From NCBI GenBank assembly GCA_021813405.1, contig JAKAKS010000028.1, positions 1-50,183 of the forward strand: 50,183 nucleotides of DNA, read 5' to 3'. The translations under genes and the position numbers were made by a program. A model generated the notes under the pieces. The model had not been told where the DNA came from, ran no database searches, and saw only the letters and a list, made by a program, of their open reading frames with translations. Positions 117 through 44,824 of this stretch are shown in pieces. This DNA comes from Nitrospirota bacterium (GTDB lineage: Bacteria > Nitrospirota > Thermodesulfovibrionia > Thermodesulfovibrionales > JdFR-88). Each line of letters begins with the position of its first letter. Within the stretch, counting starts at the first letter, position 1.

Positions 117-1436
117 TCAGAATCCTCCCATCGCGGCGAAATCACGCGGTTTTTTGCTGCGCGCCTCGAATTCTATTGCCTGGTTTGCGCCAGGGCCGGA
201 AACAGCCGCGTACAGGCCCAGTGCGGCCGCCCAGAACCGGTCCGCATGGCCGGCCCCGGTCCTCTCACCGTCAAACCGGATATTTCCAGCCGCGGTTATG
301 AATTTGCGCACCGAATGAAAATCCTCACGGACAAGCCCGTCCACAGGAATACGCACCTGTTTCTCTTCGAATTTCCGGCGGAACGTCACGGCCAGGTCTT
401 CCTTCACCTTCGCGGTAAACACAACCGCTTCAACCAGGGCCCCGAAACTGTGCACCGCCTCCTCGGCAAGCTGCGCGCCCATCCCGGATGAATCTATGCA
501 GGCCCTTCGCACTCTTATCCCTAAGGAGCCGTCCATAAGCGCGTAAAGATAGTCTCTCTGGGCGGCAAATGGCGCATTGCCCATCTCCTTAACCATGCGC
601 GTCCAGAATACATCGCCTATCTTCTCCCACAACCAGAAGACCGTAAGGTCATTTTTCCGCGCCAAGTCCATGCCAAGGTAAAAATCACCCTCCCCCATGT
701 GCGGTGAGGGATGGGAGAGGCTGATCAATTCCTTTTTAGCTCCCGCATCCTCGCATGCCGTTATCATTTCATAGGTAATAAATGCCGAAGTCTCGTCCAG
801 GAACTGGCATTCGTATTCCTGGGCCCATGATGACGGGTCGAATATCCCGGCCCTGAGCCTTTGAATGTCTATGTTCAGTCCGTCATTGATAGCGTCGTGG
901 ATGGTGGTAATGTGTCTGGAAAAACCTTCAGCGCGGTCCCAGAGGGTATGGAAAAGGTTCCTTTTGCCTTTAGGCGTGGAAGAGATGCGCACCCTGAACC
1001 CCCTGGTTACGGCAGGGTACATAGCGCGCCAAATCTCCTCTGTGCTGGTGTGAAAGGCGAATTCGTCCAGGAACACGTTGCCCGAAAAGCCGCGCACCGT
1101 GTCCGGGTTCGCCGGCAGGCTTATTATTCTGGAGCCGTTTGGAAGGCGCGCTTCCTCACGTGTGCCCTCGGTGGATATAACGTCCTCGGACCTCACGCCG
1201 AAGTAGCGCAGATGGGTATGCACCTTTTCCATTACCTCTCTGGACTGCCTTTCCGAGGCCGAGAGAATGAGGCTGGTGGAACGCTTCTTTTCCAGCGCTT
1301 CCATCACAGCCTCCAGGGCCAGGGTAAAGGACTTCCCTGTCTGCCTTGCGGCAAGCCATATCTTCATGGGGCTTATGTCTTCAACCCACCTTTTCTGATA
1401 AGGCAGAAGTATGTGGTTAATTGCGGTTTGCGCCAT
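117..1436 (-). CDS. Phage terminase large subunit (Mu gp28-like)
   Basis: The ATPase-nuclease motor that packages phage DNA into the prohead. The 439-residue protein shows a Walker A motif (AARQTGKS, about residues 29-36), a Walker B with catalytic acids (NVFLDEF, about 120-126), and in the second half acidic RNase H-like nuclease positions (YLGMDLA and ACIDSSG). Length and order fit the terminase_6 type. I chose the ATG at 1436, which gives MAQTAINHILLPYQ and overlaps the upstream gene by 20 nt. A TTG at 1463 would add nine residues and cannot be ruled out. It lies between the gp27-like gene and the portal start, the classic small-protein/terminase/portal order. No frameshift or missing motif is seen, so the packaging end of the prophage appears intact. 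Confidence 0.88.
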   Translation of the reverse strand: MAQTAINHILLPYQKRWVEDISPMKIWLAARQTGKSFTLALEAVMEALEKKRSTSLILSASERQSREVMEKVHTHLRYFGVRSEDVISTEGTREEARLPNGSRIISLPANPDTVRGFSGNVFLDEFAFHTSTEEIWRAMYPAVTRGFRVRISSTPKGKRNLFHTLWDRAEGFSRHITTIHDAINDGLNIDIQRLRAGIFDPSSWAQEYECQFLDETSAFITYEMITACEDAGAKKELISLSHPSPHMGEGDFYLGMDLARKNDLTVFWLWEKIGDVFWTRMVKEMGNAPFAAQRDYLYALMDGSLGIRVRRACIDSSGMGAQLAEEAVHSFGALVEAVVFTAKVKEDLAVTFRRKFEEKQVRIPVDGLVREDFHSVRKFITAAGNIRFDGERTGAGHADRFWAAALGLYAAVSGPGANQAIEFEARSKKPRDFAAMGGF

Positions 1437-1689
1437 AATCGTTTTCCAGTATGTCCCTTGCAATTGCCTTGAGTTCGGCTTCGCCGGACTTGCCTTCGCT
1501 CTTCATCTGCCTGTAAATCACAGCCGCAGTTTTGATGACCGATGTGTAGGCGGACAGGGCATGATGGTCCGGCTCACCTTGCGGCCCCTTTTCCTTGAAA
1601 TACCTCTCGTAGCGCTTCTTGTGCTTAAGGAGGTCCTTCACCAGCTTCATCTCAAACCCGTCCGGCTTAACGCCCGTTTTCGCTGGCAC
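1417..1689 (-). CDS. Mu gp27-like (DUF3486-type) phage protein, possible small terminase partner
   Basis: A 90-residue, highly charged protein directly before the large terminase. It has Lys/Glu-rich helices (KDLLKHKKRYERYFKEKG) and ends in RDILENDYGANRN. In Mu-like phages the protein in this slot (gp27) is thought to help terminase. The assignment here is by position and character, not by a clear motif. I chose the GTG at 1689 because GGGAGGGAAG sits about 6 nt upstream. The in-frame ATG at 1650 has no good ribosome binding site. With the GTG start the gene overlaps the end of the upstream gene by 23 nt and the terminase start by 20 nt, typical of tightly packed phage operons. Confidence 0.6.
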   Translation of the reverse strand: MPAKTGVKPDGFEMKLVKDLLKHKKRYERYFKEKGPQGEPDHHALSAYTSVIKTAAVIYRQMKSEGKSGEAELKAIARDILENDYGANRN

Positions 1690-2026
1690 CGCCGCTTCCC
1701 TCCCCTGGTTCCAAAAAGCCGTGGCTTTTCGGAATGGATACACCGTCTTCGGTGACGTTGCCGTCCAGCAGGTCCCATCCCCTCGCCGTAAGCGAGGCAT
1801 ATACGAACCTGAACCCGTAACCCTTCCTGGCCGCAAGCTTCACAAGGCCCTTCTCTGAAAGGTACTTCAGGTGCGCCTTAAGTGTTGCCTCCGGCATTGG
1901 AAACCCCAGGCTGTCGAGGGAAAAGCTGAGCACCTTCAAATCCAGGCTCCCCGGGTACTCGGTCCTCAGCAGGCCAAGCAATGCAGACCGTATAATTTTG
2001 TTCTTTTCACCCGAAATCGAACTCAT
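1667..2026 (-). CDS. Small phage winged-helix-like protein (Mu gp26 position)
   Basis: A 119-residue protein with a predicted helix-turn-helix/winged-helix look in residues 10-80. It reads IRSALLGLLRTEYPG, then a helix with LKAHLKYLSEKGLVKL, then a beta-wing-like KGYGFRFVYASLTARG. In Mu-like phages the gene at this position (gp26) also has such a fold, but its role is not settled. The start ATG at 2026 follows GGGGGAATGAG, and the preceding gene stops 2 nt before. Its C-terminal Gly/Ser-rich tail is overlapped by the next gene. A phage regulator would be an alternative, but the position inside the packaging run favours a morphogenesis or packaging accessory. Confidence 0.55.
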   Translation of the reverse strand: MSSISGEKNKIIRSALLGLLRTEYPGSLDLKVLSFSLDSLGFPMPEATLKAHLKYLSEKGLVKLAARKGYGFRFVYASLTARGWDLLDGNVTEDGVSIPKSHGFLEPGEGSGGASENGR

Positions 2027-2027
2027 C

Positions 2028-2375
2028 TCATTCCCCCTTTGAATGCAGACTCTCGCAAAACTTTCTTGCTGTAAGGTCCCTGTGCTGCTGTGCTATGTAT
2101 TTAAGGAGTACCAGCATCTCCCTGTGTTCCGAGTTGTCGCGACTGATAAGGCTGTTTATGCATTCCTTAAGGTCTTCCATGCTTACGGCCTGCCTTGCCA
2201 GGGACTGTGCCTGGGCCCCAAGCGCCTCGGCCTGCGCCTGCTGCGCAGCGATGAACCGGCCGCCAAACCTGTTTGCAAGGCGGTAAAGGCCAAACAGAAT
2301 AACCAGGGCTATTAAAAGTCCGCCGCCTGCGTTGATCAGGGCCTGCACTATCTGCGGGCTTAACGGGCCAACCAT
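2028..2375 (-). CDS. Small phage membrane/coiled-coil protein (Mu gp25-like, DUF2730-type)
   Basis: 115 residues with one clear membrane segment near the N terminus (GGGLLIALVILFGLYRLA, about residues 17-34). An Ala/Gln-rich heptad stretch (about 43-65) that should form a coiled coil follows, and then a charged tail. Mu gp25 and its relatives share this build and lie between the lysozyme and the terminase genes. The function is not established; a spanin-like or holin-associated role is possible because the endolysin gene is just upstream. The ATG at 2375 is the only start upstream of the membrane segment. Confidence 0.5.
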   Translation of the reverse strand: MVGPLSPQIVQALINAGGGLLIALVILFGLYRLANRFGGRFIAAQQAQAEALGAQAQSLARQAVSMEDLKECINSLISRDNSEHREMLVLLKYIAQQHRDLTARKFCESLHSKGE

Positions 2376-2421: not shown

Positions 2422-2883
2422 TCACGCCGTTGGCCTTTCCCCTTTTTCAAGCTGGGCAATTGCAAGCCCGCCCGTGTACTCGAAATGGCAGAGGTCCCGG
2501 AATTTGAAGCGTCCACCCCACCTGAGGCCAATGGACTCGCCCAACTCCCCCAGTTTTTCGTATGATGCGGTGTCCGCCCAATCCGGTTTCCCGTCTTTTA
2601 CAATGGCAATGTCAAAGGCGCACCCAAACTGGTGTACGCTTTTAAACAGCTTCGTCACAACCCTGTTTTCACTTTGCTTTATCGGCGCCAGCCCGGCATA
2701 CGTGCGCAGCCGGTTAACCTCGTTCAGCCCCTTCCTGCCTTGTGCAAAAAGCGCGTGCTGTTCGGCATCGGTGCGCATGGTATAGGTGATGATAAAATCA
2801 ATCCCCTCGCGCGCCGCGTCCGCCCGTAATGTTTCAAGCCGCTGGCGTACCGGCTCAACCAATTCATTAGGGTCCCTGCTCAT
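2422..2883 (-). CDS. Phage endolysin, M15/VanY-type L-Ala-D-Glu peptidase
   Basis: A 153-residue peptidoglycan peptidase expected to cleave stem peptides at lysis. The zinc-site pattern of the M15 (VanY/T5 endolysin) family is visible: SVHQFGCAFDIAI supplies the first His and the Asp, and DLCHFEYTGG near residue 136 supplies the second His. No signal peptide is present, so release would depend on a holin, which I could not identify with certainty; the membrane protein next door is a candidate. Its ATG overlaps the stop of the preceding small gene (ATGA), so the two are translationally coupled. Length is normal for a single-domain phage endolysin. Confidence 0.85.
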   Translation of the reverse strand: MSRDPNELVEPVRQRLETLRADAAREGIDFIITYTMRTDAEQHALFAQGRKGLNEVNRLRTYAGLAPIKQSENRVVTKLFKSVHQFGCAFDIAIVKDGKPDWADTASYEKLGELGESIGLRWGGRFKFRDLCHFEYTGGLAIAQLEKGERPTA

Positions 2884-3122
2884 TCAGAATCTCCTTTCAT
2901 ATCTTCTCTTCCAAGGGCTCCTTCAGTGCCGTCATCCATGGCCCTCAGTTCCATCTGGTAGCAGCCGATGCATATTTCGTCATTTTCAAGGGGCAGGCAT
3001 TGGAAAGACCTTTCTATCCGGCACCGGGTCTTTCCCGCCCTCTTTCCTGCCCACCTTATGAATCCGTCATCAACCACGCTTGTAGGATAAAACGGGGCAC
3101 CATGACATCGTCCATATGACAT
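2880..3122 (-). CDS. Small cysteine-containing phage protein, possible zinc finger
   Basis: Up to 80 residues with cysteines in a zinc-finger-like arrangement: TRCRIERS, QCLPLEND and EICIGCYQ (C-x2-C at the end). TraR/DksA-like and other phage Zn-finger proteins have comparable spacing, but I do not recognise the family. The frame is supported by the ATGA overlap with the endolysin start. The start is uncertain. The ATG at 3122-3120 sits exactly on the centre of a symmetric operator and has no Shine-Dalgarno sequence; a GTG at 3077 is an alternative, also without one. It is the first gene of the lysis-packaging operon, so its promoter should lie in or just beyond the operator. Confidence 0.5.
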   Translation of the reverse strand: MSYGRCHGAPFYPTSVVDDGFIRWAGKRAGKTRCRIERSFQCLPLENDEICIGCYQMELRAMDDGTEGALGREDMKGDSE

Positions 3123-3143
3123 ATGTCATGAAGTTCATGTCAT
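3102..3143. promoter_or_regulatory. Symmetric four-heptad operator, copy 1
   Basis: Four 7-bp elements form a perfect dyad around 3122/3123: ATGACAT at 3102-3108 and 3116-3122, and its complement ATGTCAT at 3123-3129 and 3137-3143. Both N7 spacers are equal, so the whole 42 bp is symmetric. It lies between the minus-strand lysis/packaging operon and the plus-strand LuxR-type gene and covers the candidate ATG at 3122. The same layout recurs at 37932-37973, and the central palindrome alone at 16078-16093. A regulator binding as two dimers or a tetramer is the natural reading. Which protein binds is unknown; the adjacent NarL-type protein is one candidate, a CRP/FNR-type host protein another. 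Confidence 0.75.
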
Positions 3144-3276: not shown

Positions 3277-3783
3277 TTGGCAACTAACGTCTTTGAAACC
3301 GGCAGGAACGATTTCGCGGCAGACCTGGCGCATCTGGCTGATTCGCTTCGCCTGTTCTGGGAAGAGAGGCCCTGTATATATGTGGAAAAGTCCGGCCGGC
3401 CACAAATGAACGGCGTCGCAAGGCAGCTGCTGGCCTCGCTGGGCCTGGATTTAAGCCATGTGGTGGACTTTGCCAGGGCTGGCGCGTTCTTCCAGAAGCT
3501 GTGCCTGAACGGACTGGATATGGAACTTACCAGGCTGCCGGGCGGCGCACTGGTGATTGTATTGGCTGGCAGCCGCAATACACACGAAAGCCTAACGCCA
3601 AAGGAAACGGAAGTTCTGGTTTATCTTGTTAAAGGGCTGACAAACAAGGAAATAGCCGGGGTGATGGGTGTAAGCCCCGGCACGGTAAATACCCACCTTG
3701 ATAACCTTTACAGAAAGCTTGGCTGCTCCAGCAGGATAGAGGCCTGCCTGACTGCCCTGGCAATGGGACTGGAAAAAACGTAA
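3277..3783 (+). CDS. LuxR/NarL-type DNA-binding regulator
   Basis: 168 residues. The C-terminal 65 residues are a LuxR/NarL helix-turn-helix: LTPKETEVLVYLVKG, then NKEIAGVMGVS, then GTVNTHLDNLYRKLG. The first 95 residues are not a receiver domain and lack an obvious phospho-acceptor; a PAS-like sensor fold is possible. The start is a TTG at 3277, chosen because GGAGG sits 4 nt upstream and no ATG fits. A short inverted repeat (GATAAG 3227-3232, CTTATC 3238-3243) lies in its leader. It is divergent from the prophage lysis/packaging operon with the four-heptad operator between, suggesting control of that operon, of itself, or both. It could belong to the prophage or be the first host gene. Confidence 0.8.
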   Translation: MATNVFETGRNDFAADLAHLADSLRLFWEERPCIYVEKSGRPQMNGVARQLLASLGLDLSHVVDFARAGAFFQKLCLNGLDMELTRLPGGALVIVLAGSRNTHESLTPKETEVLVYLVKGLTNKEIAGVMGVSPGTVNTHLDNLYRKLGCSSRIEACLTALAMGLEKT

Positions 3784-16077: not shown

Positions 16078-16093
16078 TGTGACATATGTCACA
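16078..16093. promoter_or_regulatory. CRP-type palindrome sharing the core of the heptad operators
   Basis: TGTGA-CATATG-TCACA matches the classic CRP site (TGTGA-N6-TCACA) perfectly. Its 12-bp core TGACATATGTCA is identical to the centre of the operator at 3102-3143 and one base from that at 37932-37973. The flanking heptads of those two are missing here. No gene starts close by, so the target could be a small RNA or the distant carboxypeptidase promoter. Confidence 0.6.
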
Positions 16094-16188
16094 TAAACGC
16101 ATCCTTTTTTCTTTTTTGATTTCTTCAGGATTTCTTCCAGATAAAAAAATCCCTTTTACTGGCTGTTTGGTTTGCCGTACGCTGGGAA

Positions 16189-16283
16189 GCGGGCGGTAGG
16201 TGAGCGAAGTGGCCGAGCGAGCCGTGGCGGACCTGAATTGAACCGAAGCGGGATGAGGCCCAGCGCAGACGAACACCGCCCGC
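16189..16283. repeat. 95-bp element closed by a perfect 9-bp stem
   Basis: GCGGGCGGT at 16189-16197 is the exact reverse complement of ACCGCCCGC at 16275-16283, and the GC-rich interior has room for further pairing. No tRNA, T-arm or terminator T-run fits. It could be a structured RNA or a small repeated element; copies elsewhere cannot be checked from this window. Confidence 0.45.
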
Positions 16284-16423
16284 TAAAAAATCAGAGAACA
16301 GACTGGCATAGTCAAATGCATCAAGAGTGACAGAAGCAAAGCCGCCAGGCCCCGCCCCCCCGGTATGACTCTGCGCCCTCCGGGCCAGGGGAAAACGGGT
16401 TTAGAGAATTTTTCCGGAGGCCG

Positions 16424-37739: not shown

Positions 37740-37931
37740 AAAATTTAAATTCTGCTTGTACTAAGCACGTTTTTGCCATTGTTTTCAAGGCATGCTTCAG
37801 GGGGTAACTTGCTACCTTAAAAAAGGCTTTTTTCATAAGGACTGGAAGGGGTAATTAAAACCTGCTTGAAGCCGTGGAAGGGATTGGTTATCATATGAAT
37901 CAGACACCGCTGCCTCGTACCCCCAAAAAAC

Positions 37932-37973
37932 ATGACATAAATTTCATGACACATGTCATATTGACAATGTCAT
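37932..37973. promoter_or_regulatory. Symmetric four-heptad operator, copy 2, overlapping a promoter
   Basis: ATGACAT at 37932-37938, ATGACAC at 37946-37952, ATGTCAT at 37953-37959 and ATGTCAT at 37967-37973, with equal N7 spacers. The layout is the same 42-bp one as at 3102-3143, with one base different. A plus-strand TTGACA (37961-37966) lies in the right spacer and TATGAT follows at 37986-37991 (19-bp spacing), so binding would cover the -35 box. The site is 310 bp upstream of the Met-rich protein gene. Confidence 0.75.
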
Positions 37974-38284
37974 GGCAGGAAGCATTATGATACCTTGTAC
38001 GAGGGCCCTGCCCTCTATGCTCTTTGAAAAGGCATAAATTTAAAATCAGCCGCTTAGTAATGGACCGGGGGGCAAAGAGATTGAACAGACGGAACATAAA
38101 TTTCGGCGCAATTTGCTGAAAACAAAAGAAAATCCCAAAAAGGCTGGAACATATAAAAAAAAGGCAGTCCTTCCACCGAAGGCCAGGGGCCTGATTTCGT
38201 TTTTTTCCGCCGGTAAAACCGGTGATATAATCTTTTCAGGAACGGGCACCATGTAATCCATGTTTTTCAAAGGAGGGCTTTTAA

Positions 38285-38887
38285 ATGAAAAAAAAGGAAA
38301 TCTATGCGGCCTTGTTTTTTACCATCATCCTCTCCGGGCTGTTTGCCGCCGGATTGGCCATGGCCGCGCAAATGCAGGACAACTCCGGCTACGGCTGCAT
38401 GAATACGCCTGAAGGCATGATGAATTGCGGCGTGTGCGGATGCACAAAGGTGCCAGGTGGAGCTGCGGGCTGCATGAATATGCCGGGCGGCATGGGCATG
38501 ATGGGAGCAGGCAGCATGGGCGGCATGATGGGAATGGGCGGCATGAAGATGATGGACAGGCGGATGGAAGTAATGTCCGCAATAGGCGTTGCCGCCGGCC
38601 CGGCGATTTCACCATTTGGCTCAACGATGGCAAAGGATATAATGCAGGACCCGGAGATAAAACAATTTCTGGACAGCACTAAAAAACTGAGGCTGGAGCT
38701 TGTTCAAAAGAGGTTCAGTTATTACGAGGCCCTTAGAAACCCCGCCACCAAGCCGGAGCAGATAATAACCATGCGGAAGGAGCTAAGACGTCTCCAGAAA
38801 GAGATATGGGACAAATCCCCGTTCAAGGCTGGCGGCTTGTGCGGCCCCCGAGAGGCCGGCTGGGACACCGGAGATGATTCTCGATAG
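38285..38887 (+). CDS. Met/Gly-rich periplasmic protein, CpxP/ZraP-like
   Basis: 200 residues with a signal peptide (LFFTIILSGLFAAGLAMA). Residues about 38-90 are extremely rich in Met and Gly (GGMGMMGAGSMGGMMGMGG), with Cys pairs (NCGVCGC) typical of copper or soft-metal binding. The helical end (LELVQKRFSYYEALRNP; MRKELRRLQKEIWDKSPF) resembles the Spy/CpxP/ZraP periplasmic chaperone group. The proposed role is metal-stress protection or chaperoning; the metal is not known. AGGAGG precedes the ATG, and TATAAT at 38226-38231 is a good -10 box with a weak -35. The upstream four-heptad operator may control it. Confidence 0.8.
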   Translation: MKKKEIYAALFFTIILSGLFAAGLAMAAQMQDNSGYGCMNTPEGMMNCGVCGCTKVPGGAAGCMNMPGGMGMMGAGSMGGMMGMGGMKMMDRRMEVMSAIGVAAGPAISPFGSTMAKDIMQDPEIKQFLDSTKKLRLELVQKRFSYYEALRNPATKPEQIITMRKELRRLQKEIWDKSPFKAGGLCGPREAGWDTGDDSR

Positions 38888-41446: not shown

Positions 41447-42457
41447 TCATTTATGGGCCTTTCGCCAGGCTGTCAGTTTTTCCCGAAGCCTTATAAGCAT
41501 GGTCAACAGGAAAGGGAATGCCTTCAGGTTGATAACAACCCGGCTTGTTAATGTGGCGTATCTTTTGTATTTGGGGTTCACTTCCACCATTTTCCGGAAC
41601 TTCGCAACATCCCCCCGCAATAAGTAATGCAATCCCCGTTTGCATTTCCAGCTGATTTCGGAGCGCTTGATAATCCCCGGCTTCACACCAAGTTCCTCCG
41701 CACGACGGTACGCGTCAAAATACGCCTGGTCAATTATGTGGGCCTGCGGCCAAAGCGGGTCCGAGGCGGTCATCGGGCTCTTCCGCCAAATTCCCAGCGT
41801 TTCGTTTATGTATCCAATATCGCCCTTGGACGCCTGCTCAAGATGGTAGAAGAAATCTACCGTGCGCCTGTCCCTATAACGGCTGATTATCGCGCTGCGG
41901 CGGTACATCTTGCTGCAATGGGAAAAATAGCAACCTTTCATGCAAAGATAGTCAATGCCGGCCTTTTCAGGGACTGTGAAATTCACAAAAGATTCCGAGA
42001 TCACCTTCCCTGTGCCACCCTCGATCTTTCTGACGTTATGGGCAACTATGGTGCAATCCGTGTTTCTGTCCAGAAACTCCGCCTGCTTTTGCAGCTTCCC
42101 GGGCAGCATCATGTCATCGCCGTCAAGATAGGCTATATACTTGCCCTTTGCCCTTCTCATCACATCAAGGTAGTTTTGCGTTCCATTTATGTTTTTTTCA
42201 CGTAAAACAGGGATTATCAGGTGCGGATAGCGGTTTGCATAATCGCGCAATATCTGCTGTGTAACTCCGTCAGTAGATGCGTCGTCCCCCACTATAATTT
42301 CAAACGGGAAATTTGTTTCCTGTGTAACTATGGATTCCAGGCATTCGGCAAGCCATTGCCCGTGATTAAAGGTCAGCACAGTAACGCTTACCTTGGGCGT
42401 AAGCAGCCCAGGCAGCACAGATACAATTTCAGTTGATTCTATGATATCCAAGCCCAT
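41447..42457 (-). CDS. Family 2 glycosyltransferase, copy A
   Basis: 336 residues with a GT-A fold: VSVTVLTFNHGQWLAECLES, the first acidic site VGDDASTDG, and the DXD-type motif YLDGDDMMLPG that binds the metal-nucleotide sugar. The first 190 residues are nearly identical at DNA level to the gene at 43760-44824, while the C-terminal third differs. The protein is soluble, with no membrane segment. It likely adds one sugar in the polysaccharide repeat. The unshared end (EISWKCKRGLHYLLRGDVAK) may set acceptor specificity. Confidence 0.88.
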   Translation of the reverse strand: MGLDIIESTEIVSVLPGLLTPKVSVTVLTFNHGQWLAECLESIVTQETNFPFEIIVGDDASTDGVTQQILRDYANRYPHLIIPVLREKNINGTQNYLDVMRRAKGKYIAYLDGDDMMLPGKLQKQAEFLDRNTDCTIVAHNVRKIEGGTGKVISESFVNFTVPEKAGIDYLCMKGCYFSHCSKMYRRSAIISRYRDRRTVDFFYHLEQASKGDIGYINETLGIWRKSPMTASDPLWPQAHIIDQAYFDAYRRAEELGVKPGIIKRSEISWKCKRGLHYLLRGDVAKFRKMVEVNPKYKRYATLTSRVVINLKAFPFLLTMLIRLREKLTAWRKAHK

Positions 42458-43759: not shown

Positions 43760-44824
43760 TTAATCGCCGTCCGGGCCGGGATTGGGCCGGGTGGTTTTCA
43801 TTTTACGGAGGCTATTCCGTACACTGGCCTTCAATTCCGGATATGCCATGACAAGTATGTCCCTCACACTTAAAATTGCCTTAGCCACGAAGGGGAATGC
43901 TCTTAACCGGATGACAACCTTGTTTCTGAAAGATGCATACCGTTTATTAACTGAAATAACCCCGATCATTTGCCTGAAAGTTTCAACATCTCCGCAACGC
44001 AAGAATTGCAGAGCCCTGTCGCATTTCCAGTTGACCTCAAGATGCTTGATTATCTCCGGATCAACACCCAGTTCCTCGGCGCGTCTGTATGCATCTTCAT
44101 TGGCCTGTTCAAGGATTCTGCCGAACGCCCCCCTGGGGTCCGATGCCGTCAGAGGGCTGCGCCGGTATACCCCAAGTGTTTCATTTATATATCCGATATT
44201 GCCTTTGGACGCCTGCTCGATATGATAGAAGAGGTCGATGGTGCGCCTCTCTCTGTAACGGCTGATTATCGCGCTGCGGCGGTACATCTTGCTGCAATGG
44301 GCAAAATAGGAACCTTTTTGGCACAGGTAATTGATATCGGCCTTTTCAGGGACTGTGAAATTCACAAAAGATTCCGAGATCACCTTCCCTGTGCCGCCCT
44401 GGATCTTCCTTACGTTGTGCGCAACTATGGTGCAATCCGTGTTTCTGTCCAGAAAGTCCGCCTGCTTTTGCAGCTTGCCTGGCAGCATCATGTCATCCCC
44501 ATCTATAAAGGCGATATACTCGCCCCGCGCCCTTCTCATCACATCAAGGTAGTTTTGCGTTCCGTTTATATTTTTTTCACGTAAAACAGGGATTATAAGG
44601 TGCGGATAGCGGTTTGAGTAATCGCGCAATATCTGCGGAGTGACTCCGTCAGTAGATGCGTCATCCCCAACTATAATTTCAAAAGGGAAATTTGTTTCCT
44701 GTGTAACTATGGATTCCAGGCATTCGGCAAGCCATTGCCCGTGATTAAAGGTCAGCACAGTAACGCTTACCTTGGGCGCTGGACTGCTGGCGCATTTCAG
44801 ATCTGCAATCTCGTTTTCTTTCAT
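43760..44824 (-). CDS. Family 2 glycosyltransferase, copy B
   Basis: 354 residues with the same N-terminal catalytic region as copy A: VSVTVLTFNHGQWLAECLES, VGDDASTDG and a DXD-type FIDGDDMMLPG. About 500 nt (44260-44771) are almost unchanged between the copies. The C-terminal third is divergent and extended (ends RKMKTTRPNPGPDGD). The ATG overlaps the flippase stop (ATGA). The protein is soluble and should transfer a sugar in polysaccharide assembly; different tails suggest different acceptors. Confidence 0.88.
   Translation of the reverse strand: MKENEIADLKCASSPAPKVSVTVLTFNHGQWLAECLESIVTQETNFPFEIIVGDDASTDGVTPQILRDYSNRYPHLIIPVLREKNINGTQNYLDVMRRARGEYIAFIDGDDMMLPGKLQKQADFLDRNTDCTIVAHNVRKIQGGTGKVISESFVNFTVPEKADINYLCQKGSYFAHCSKMYRRSAIISRYRERRTIDLFYHIEQASKGNIGYINETLGVYRRSPLTASDPRGAFGRILEQANEDAYRRAEELGVDPEIIKHLEVNWKCDRALQFLRCGDVETFRQMIGVISVNKRYASFRNKVVIRLRAFPFVAKAILSVRDILVMAYPELKASVRNSLRKMKTTRPNPGPDGD

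Follow-up and report, generated by a model that had tools for sequence, protein, structure and literature searches.

Late promoters of bacteriophage Mu are activated by Mor or C. In REPIN/RAYT systems, REP elements occur together with a solitary IS200-like HUH transposase (PMC3116915). Known examples of a boxA in front of untranslated RNA are rRNA and CRISPR arrays (PMC5725501, PMC7862264). Here we describe a dyad in a Nitrospirota genome that probably serves as the switch of a promoter. In this genus the promoter stands at the head of about 50 dispersed copies of a DNA element, a family of which no earlier description was found in the literature searched.

The analysed stretch of DNA (the window, 50,183 nucleotides) is contig 50 of a 2.9 Mb genome in 56 contigs. 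A sequence-only reading of the window had pointed to a perfectly symmetric operator of four heptads, to a second site of the same architecture, and to a third occurrence of the 12-bp centre:

3102–3143, minus strand: four-heptad operator, copy 1 (minus-strand reading ATGACATGAACTTCATGACATATGTCATATGGACGATGTCAT)
37932–37973, plus strand: four-heptad operator, copy 2, with one mismatch
16080–16091, no strand assigned: 12-mer core only, within TGTGACATATGTCACA, a CRP-type look-alike outside the 42-bp family

The operator pattern used for all searches was ATGACATN7ATGACATATGTCATN7ATGTCAT, which is matched with 0 mismatches at 3102–3143 and with 1 at 37932–37973. No match with up to 3 mismatches was obtained in 100 dinucleotide-preserving shuffles of the window, so both sites are real and far beyond chance. 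With 2 mismatches allowed, the 12-mer alone is unremarkable (4 occurrences in the window versus 1.4 expected). The third site is indeed an exact 12-mer, but it does not belong to the family, since its context (TTTGTGACATATGTCACATAA) lacks the outer heptads, the −10 and the other family marks. It is part of a perfect TGTGACATATGTCACA at 16078–16093, which we take to be a textbook CRP-type palindrome. Only this intergenic sequence, and not the 42-bp family, conforms to the CRP/FNR pattern TGTGA-N6-TCACA without extra heptads, and it is a candidate CRP/FNR-family site unrelated to the family. The symmetry of the 42-bp site, finally, is perfect in the heptads but does not extend to the 7-bp spacers, which are each conserved among copies yet unlike each other (GAACTTC versus ATGGACA). 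Because the spacers are conserved and asymmetric, the site is directional.

In the whole genome the 42-bp pattern was found in 49 copies (up to 3 mismatches), compared to 0 for the reversed control, and the exact 12-mer occurs 27 times in 2.9 Mb. None of the 42-bp copies overlaps a predicted gene. Conservation in relatives was seen in a second member of the genus, the sister species represented by MAG Nitrospirae bacterium DBS2-1.bin64 (here G001; the genome of the window is G000), which has 42 copies, but it ends there, with 0 copies of the operator in 59 other, more distant genomes of the family and order. Most copies occupy orthologous places in both sister species. Since the two species are close, conservation between them says little about constraint.

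Alignment of 51 copies resulted in the consensus ATGACAT-gAACTTC-ATGACAT-ATGTCAT-ATGGACA-ATGTCAT, with AAAACC in front of it and TATGAT 12 bp behind. The right spacer contains a −35 (TGGACA or TTGACA), with a 19-bp spacer to the −10 TATGAT. In the window these hexamers are located as follows:

3109–3114, minus strand: −35-like hexamer TGGACG in the right spacer of copy 1 (column statistics, 51 copies)
3084–3089, minus strand: −10-like hexamer of copy 1, TATCCT (TATGAT in the family consensus), at 19 bp from the −35
37961–37966, plus strand: −35 of copy 2, TTGACA, within its right spacer
37986–37991, plus strand: −10 TATGAT of copy 2, 19 bp downstream of the −35

The palindrome covers the −35 and the DNA immediately upstream of it, and its centre, judging by the sequence, would be near −45, the usual place of activators that overlap the −35. 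The 42-bp site can be regarded as a directional operator-promoter and, given the direction of the promoter, site 1 would point leftward into a phage operon and site 2 rightward. We consider it probable that the elements form one dispersed family, that each copy has its own promoter, and that the 42-bp site is the operator, of the activator type, of this promoter. A genus-specific activator would bind the four half-sites at about −45 and compensate for the poor −35/−10 spacer.

The elements are composed, in this order, of the promoter, a leader hairpin, an rrn-type boxA, a variable body, TTGAACA or TGGAACA boxes and an A-run. Site 2 is the head of a typical short element:

37843–37919, plus strand: upstream repeat common to several copies (GGAAGGGGTAATTAAAACCTGCTT..CAGACACC)
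38001–38015, plus strand: leader hairpin GAGGGC-CCT-GCCCTC in a boxB-like position, weak on its own (z −1.6)
38018–38030, plus strand: boxA TGCTCTTTGAAAA of copy 2
38081–38096, plus strand: 3′ boxes 1 and 2 (TTGAACA, CGGAACA), mixed class (alignment A1; model match 38044–38163)
38145–38164, plus strand: 3′ box 3 and A-run, TGGAACATATAAAAAAAAGG, the end of the element
38285–38887, plus strand: gene behind copy 2, encoding a 200-aa Met/Gly/Cys-rich secreted protein with an orthologue in G001

Folding of the leader gave a mean z of −0.88 over 49 copies. In the genome's own 16S leader, the promoter is followed by CGTTCTTTGAAAAG, which identifies TGCTCTTTGAAAA as the boxA of this genome. Of 56 copies, 24 have the sequence CTTTGAAAA within 200 nt, versus 0.8 in shuffles. 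A recognisable boxA is found in only about half of the copies; in these it lies downstream of the promoter and matches the rrn boxA of the genome, as in an rrn-type leader. Short copies would yield non-coding transcripts, and boxA together with Nus factors may shield these from Rho.

Two classes of boxes can be distinguished at the 3′ end, class B with TGGAACAgaTGGAACA...TGGAACATATAAAAAGAAAGG and class A with TTGAACgg.TTGAACA...TTGAACACTAAAAAAAGG. The class is uniform within nearly every copy, the few mixed ones including site 2 of the window. Models of these modules gave 44 class B and 54 class A matches in G000, and 43 and 45 in G001. A structured RNA in the 3′ module was rejected, as RNAalifold gave no consensus pairs. 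Protein coding was rejected as well, because the boxes are spaced by 8, 9 or 10 nt, with frame shifts for example in L018; differences between orthologues, judged by eye, are mostly non-synonymous and were also counted against coding. The signal for an intrinsic terminator of the element's own behind the A-run was weak (11 of 89 versus 2 in shuffles), and this candidate was dropped. The A-run often abuts a hairpin (L013, L067, L108) whose opposite strand resembles an intrinsic terminator, with stems slightly above those of shuffles. By eye we also noticed an anti-box between boxA and the boxes (L014, L033, L040, L049, L155) that could pair with the boxes; it reads TGTTCCA in class B copies and TGTTCAA in the class A copy L033. 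Neither the elements at 16 loci nor the window matched Rfam at the gathering score.

Each of the two species has two intact copies in which a small HTH gene lies between promoter and boxes. The HTH proteins of these copies matched only HTH profiles, and weakly, while some members of the HTH family match small-terminase profiles (phrog_2538, best 9.5e-07). No transposase, HUH or other, was found in the element by a Pfam or NCBIfam match at usable score. Homologues of the HTH protein are present in 7 of 11 genomes with strong class A matches versus 0 of 30 without (hypergeometric p about 1.5e-5, relatedness ignored). In G000, G001, G002, G006 and G011, and likewise in the copies of G039, the ORFs follow immediately after the promoter and precede the boxes. 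The recognition helix S[IV]GSVHNI is combined with TTGAACA (class A) and GIASVHRI with TGGAACA (class B), and the relic L221 combines a helix SVHKI with GTGAACA boxes. The replacement of Asn by Arg alongside that of T by G would look like a changed base contact. We infer from this joint change, which comprises few independent events and is the best evidence on this point, that the element-encoded HTH protein may bind the 3′ boxes. The operator is the same in class A and class B copies, so that its reader is probably neither of the two HTH proteins (class A type at C3:18871, class B type at C47:13054) but a third factor specific to the genus.

The boxes could also be taken as parts of a chromosome-organising or partition system, in which the HTH protein would act in nucleoid structure or segregation by binding to arrays at about 90 places, while the promoter would be of no consequence. 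The number of box arrays (about 90 per genome) would suit such a role, as would the intergenic position of all tested copies and the presence of at least 3 boxes in each array, which change with the HTH helix. However, promoter, leader and boxA are retained in short copies, and gain and loss between sister species as well as two box classes per genome favour an element, so that we regard this explanation as quite unlikely.

In a wider search for 3′ modules with sequence-only models, class B modules were detected in this genus only; class A modules were also detected in eight further members of the family and, with 27 matches, in G039, which belongs to another family. Outside the genus, class A modules are preceded by the same core promoter, ATGGACA-N19-TATGAT, and the copies carry either boxA or what is left of a Shine-Dalgarno sequence. 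What differs between genera is the palindrome in front of the −35, as exemplified by ATAAACTGTTTAT in G002. This distribution, the conserved core promoter and the differing palindromes indicate that the element is old and that its operator turns over between genera.

L031 and L053 carry the element in G000 but not in G001; at L057 the element and the intergenic DNA around it have given way to other DNA in G001. None of the three loci examined revealed a clean insertion junction or a target-site duplication; the intergenic DNA is simply different. Insertion sequences and MITEs are marked by a transposase gene, terminal inverted repeats and target-site duplication; the two ends of the element here (AAAACC/operator and the A-run) are not inverted repeats. 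Stretches of 100–185 bp upstream of the operator are near-identical (95–100%) in L069, L155 and L033, which may be evidence of recent copying or gene conversion. In both drafts contigs end 90–440 bp upstream of many copies, and this clustering is explained by the near-identical upstream DNA that some copies share. The elements are likely to have spread with the help of intact copies, and the short copies would be internal-deletion derivatives of these.

Two further observations concern repeated sequences in the window. A second dispersed repeat, at 16180–16292, folds strongly as RNA (−48 kcal/mol, z −3.6; outer stem GCGGGCGGU/ACCGCCCGC) and has no Rfam match in the window; similar sequences occur near the elements L005, L010, L024, L046 and L057. 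The two glycosyltransferase genes at 41447–42457 and 43760–44824 have nearly identical N-terminal halves.

Site 1 differs from the typical elements. The surrounding features are:

2880–3077, minus strand: 65-aa Cys-rich ORF, first behind copy 1, conserved in G001, no Pfam or PHROG match
2422–2883, minus strand: phage endolysin (M15/VanY peptidase)
2028–2375, minus strand: small membrane protein in a holin- or spanin-like position, weak PHROG match only
1667–2026, minus strand: phage protein of phrog_436
117–1463, minus strand: large terminase, Mu-like structural operon
3277–3783, plus strand: LuxR/GerE-type host protein adjoining copy 1, family-wide and not tied to the element

Behind the terminase gene, the sister species has genes for portal, major head protein and head-tail adaptor of the Mu type. 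The promoter of copy 1 has neither boxA nor boxes and faces this Mu-like late operon; it would represent the same promoter as in the elements. Its location suggests another explanation, namely that a Mu-like phage owns the operator, that a late activator of the Mor/C type binds it, and that the dispersed elements are satellites or decoys with a borrowed late promoter. In both species copy 1 is found where a Mu late promoter is expected, before the endolysin, terminase, portal and head genes. Mor-family genes are present in the genome, and the small-terminase similarity of some HTH members points in the same direction. On the other hand, Mor-family genes were found in 8 of 8 genomes tested, with or without elements, and do not correlate with the operator, which speaks against Mor as the regulator. 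Only one of about 50 copies was shown to head phage structural genes. A search of 2.9 million viral contigs of IMG/VR gave no exact match to the operator, and INPHARED gave none either. The HTH protein was equally unmatched in INPHARED, and IMG/VR yielded one weak, HTH-only match, in a protein upstream of a large terminase; apart from this, nothing linked the family to a known phage element, and that assignment was rejected. Ownership of the operator by a Mu-like phage therefore appears unlikely to us, and a Mu-type activator for site 1 is possible but not indicated.

The right-hand gene is on the same strand in 41 of 98 copies, with the next genes within 130–310 nt in some of them, as would be expected of a true host regulon in which a chromosomal global regulator, such as the LuxR-type 3277–3783 protein or a CRP/FNR protein, controls the adjoining genes. 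In the other 57 of 98 copies this gene is on the opposite strand, which also led us to reject the element as a leader of downstream genes. Furthermore, no common theme was found among the neighbouring genes, and in most copies the element's own 3′ module precedes the next gene. One copy is adjoined by a c-di-GMP-I riboswitch (L002:1302–1378, minus strand). The 3277–3783 protein, which had been put forward as a candidate for binding the operator, is a poor choice and was rejected as regulator, since its distribution does not track the elements: orthologues exist in all family members, including the element-free G004 and G005, but G039, where a related element occurs, yielded none. Control of host genes in this way is, in our opinion, very unlikely. 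What stands of the earlier idea of a regulator shared by prophage and host genes is that the operator is common to the prophage late operon and to many intergenic chromosomal sites; those other sites, however, are mainly copies of the dispersed element and not host genes under a common regulator.

Beyond the activator-type operator that we favour, we tentatively propose, as a possibility open to considerable doubt, a new class of single-gene genomic element. Its HTH protein and tandem boxes (TTGAACA, TGGAACA, GTGAACA) would co-evolve as a cognate pair, and for its spread, in which no recognisable transposase takes part, it would use an activated promoter peculiar to the lineage as well as borrowed antitermination of the rRNA type. 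The same promoter would in this genus also drive a possibly domesticated Mu-like structural operon. An odd palindrome has thereby become a testable system, a Nitrospirota lineage with dozens of promoter-bearing intergenic elements in which protein and boxes change together. Movement of the elements without a known transposase would, if it occurs, amount to a novel mode of DNA multiplication in bacterial genomes. Transcription, if it takes place, would rank them among the largest boxA-led non-coding RNA families outside rRNA. The HTH helices and boxes that are paired in nature offer a ready-made specificity code for testing.

The element family shares individual traits with several known systems. 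In encoding a small HTH protein that bears some resemblance to small terminases, the family is reminiscent of PICI-type satellites, but no integrase, replication or capsid-hijack genes were seen in the copies, which are below 1 kb. Copy 1 resembles Mu late promoters in having an activator-type operator upstream of a weak −35 before a lysis/head operon, whereas the operator occurs at about 50 chromosomal places and there appears to head non-coding units. With rrn leaders and boxA-led CRISPR arrays the elements have in common the hairpin and boxA shortly behind the promoter and the agreement of boxA with the 16S leader of the genome; they differ in forming about 50 separate short loci that are not rRNA and contain no regular repeat-spacer array. 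Like REPIN/RAYT, the family consists of many short intergenic non-autonomous copies and one or two intact ones that encode a cognate DNA-binding protein, and it persists vertically within one lineage. The copies here are, however, promoter-bearing units with boxA of about 200–650 bp. In place of the palindromic 3′ and 5′ REP hairpins they have 3′ boxes without a consensus fold and an operator with asymmetric spacers, and their protein is a small HTH protein and not a cognate Y1 HUH transposase. Although it fails on this defining transposase, the family appears, by analogy, to work like a REPIN/RAYT-type population of intact and short copies.
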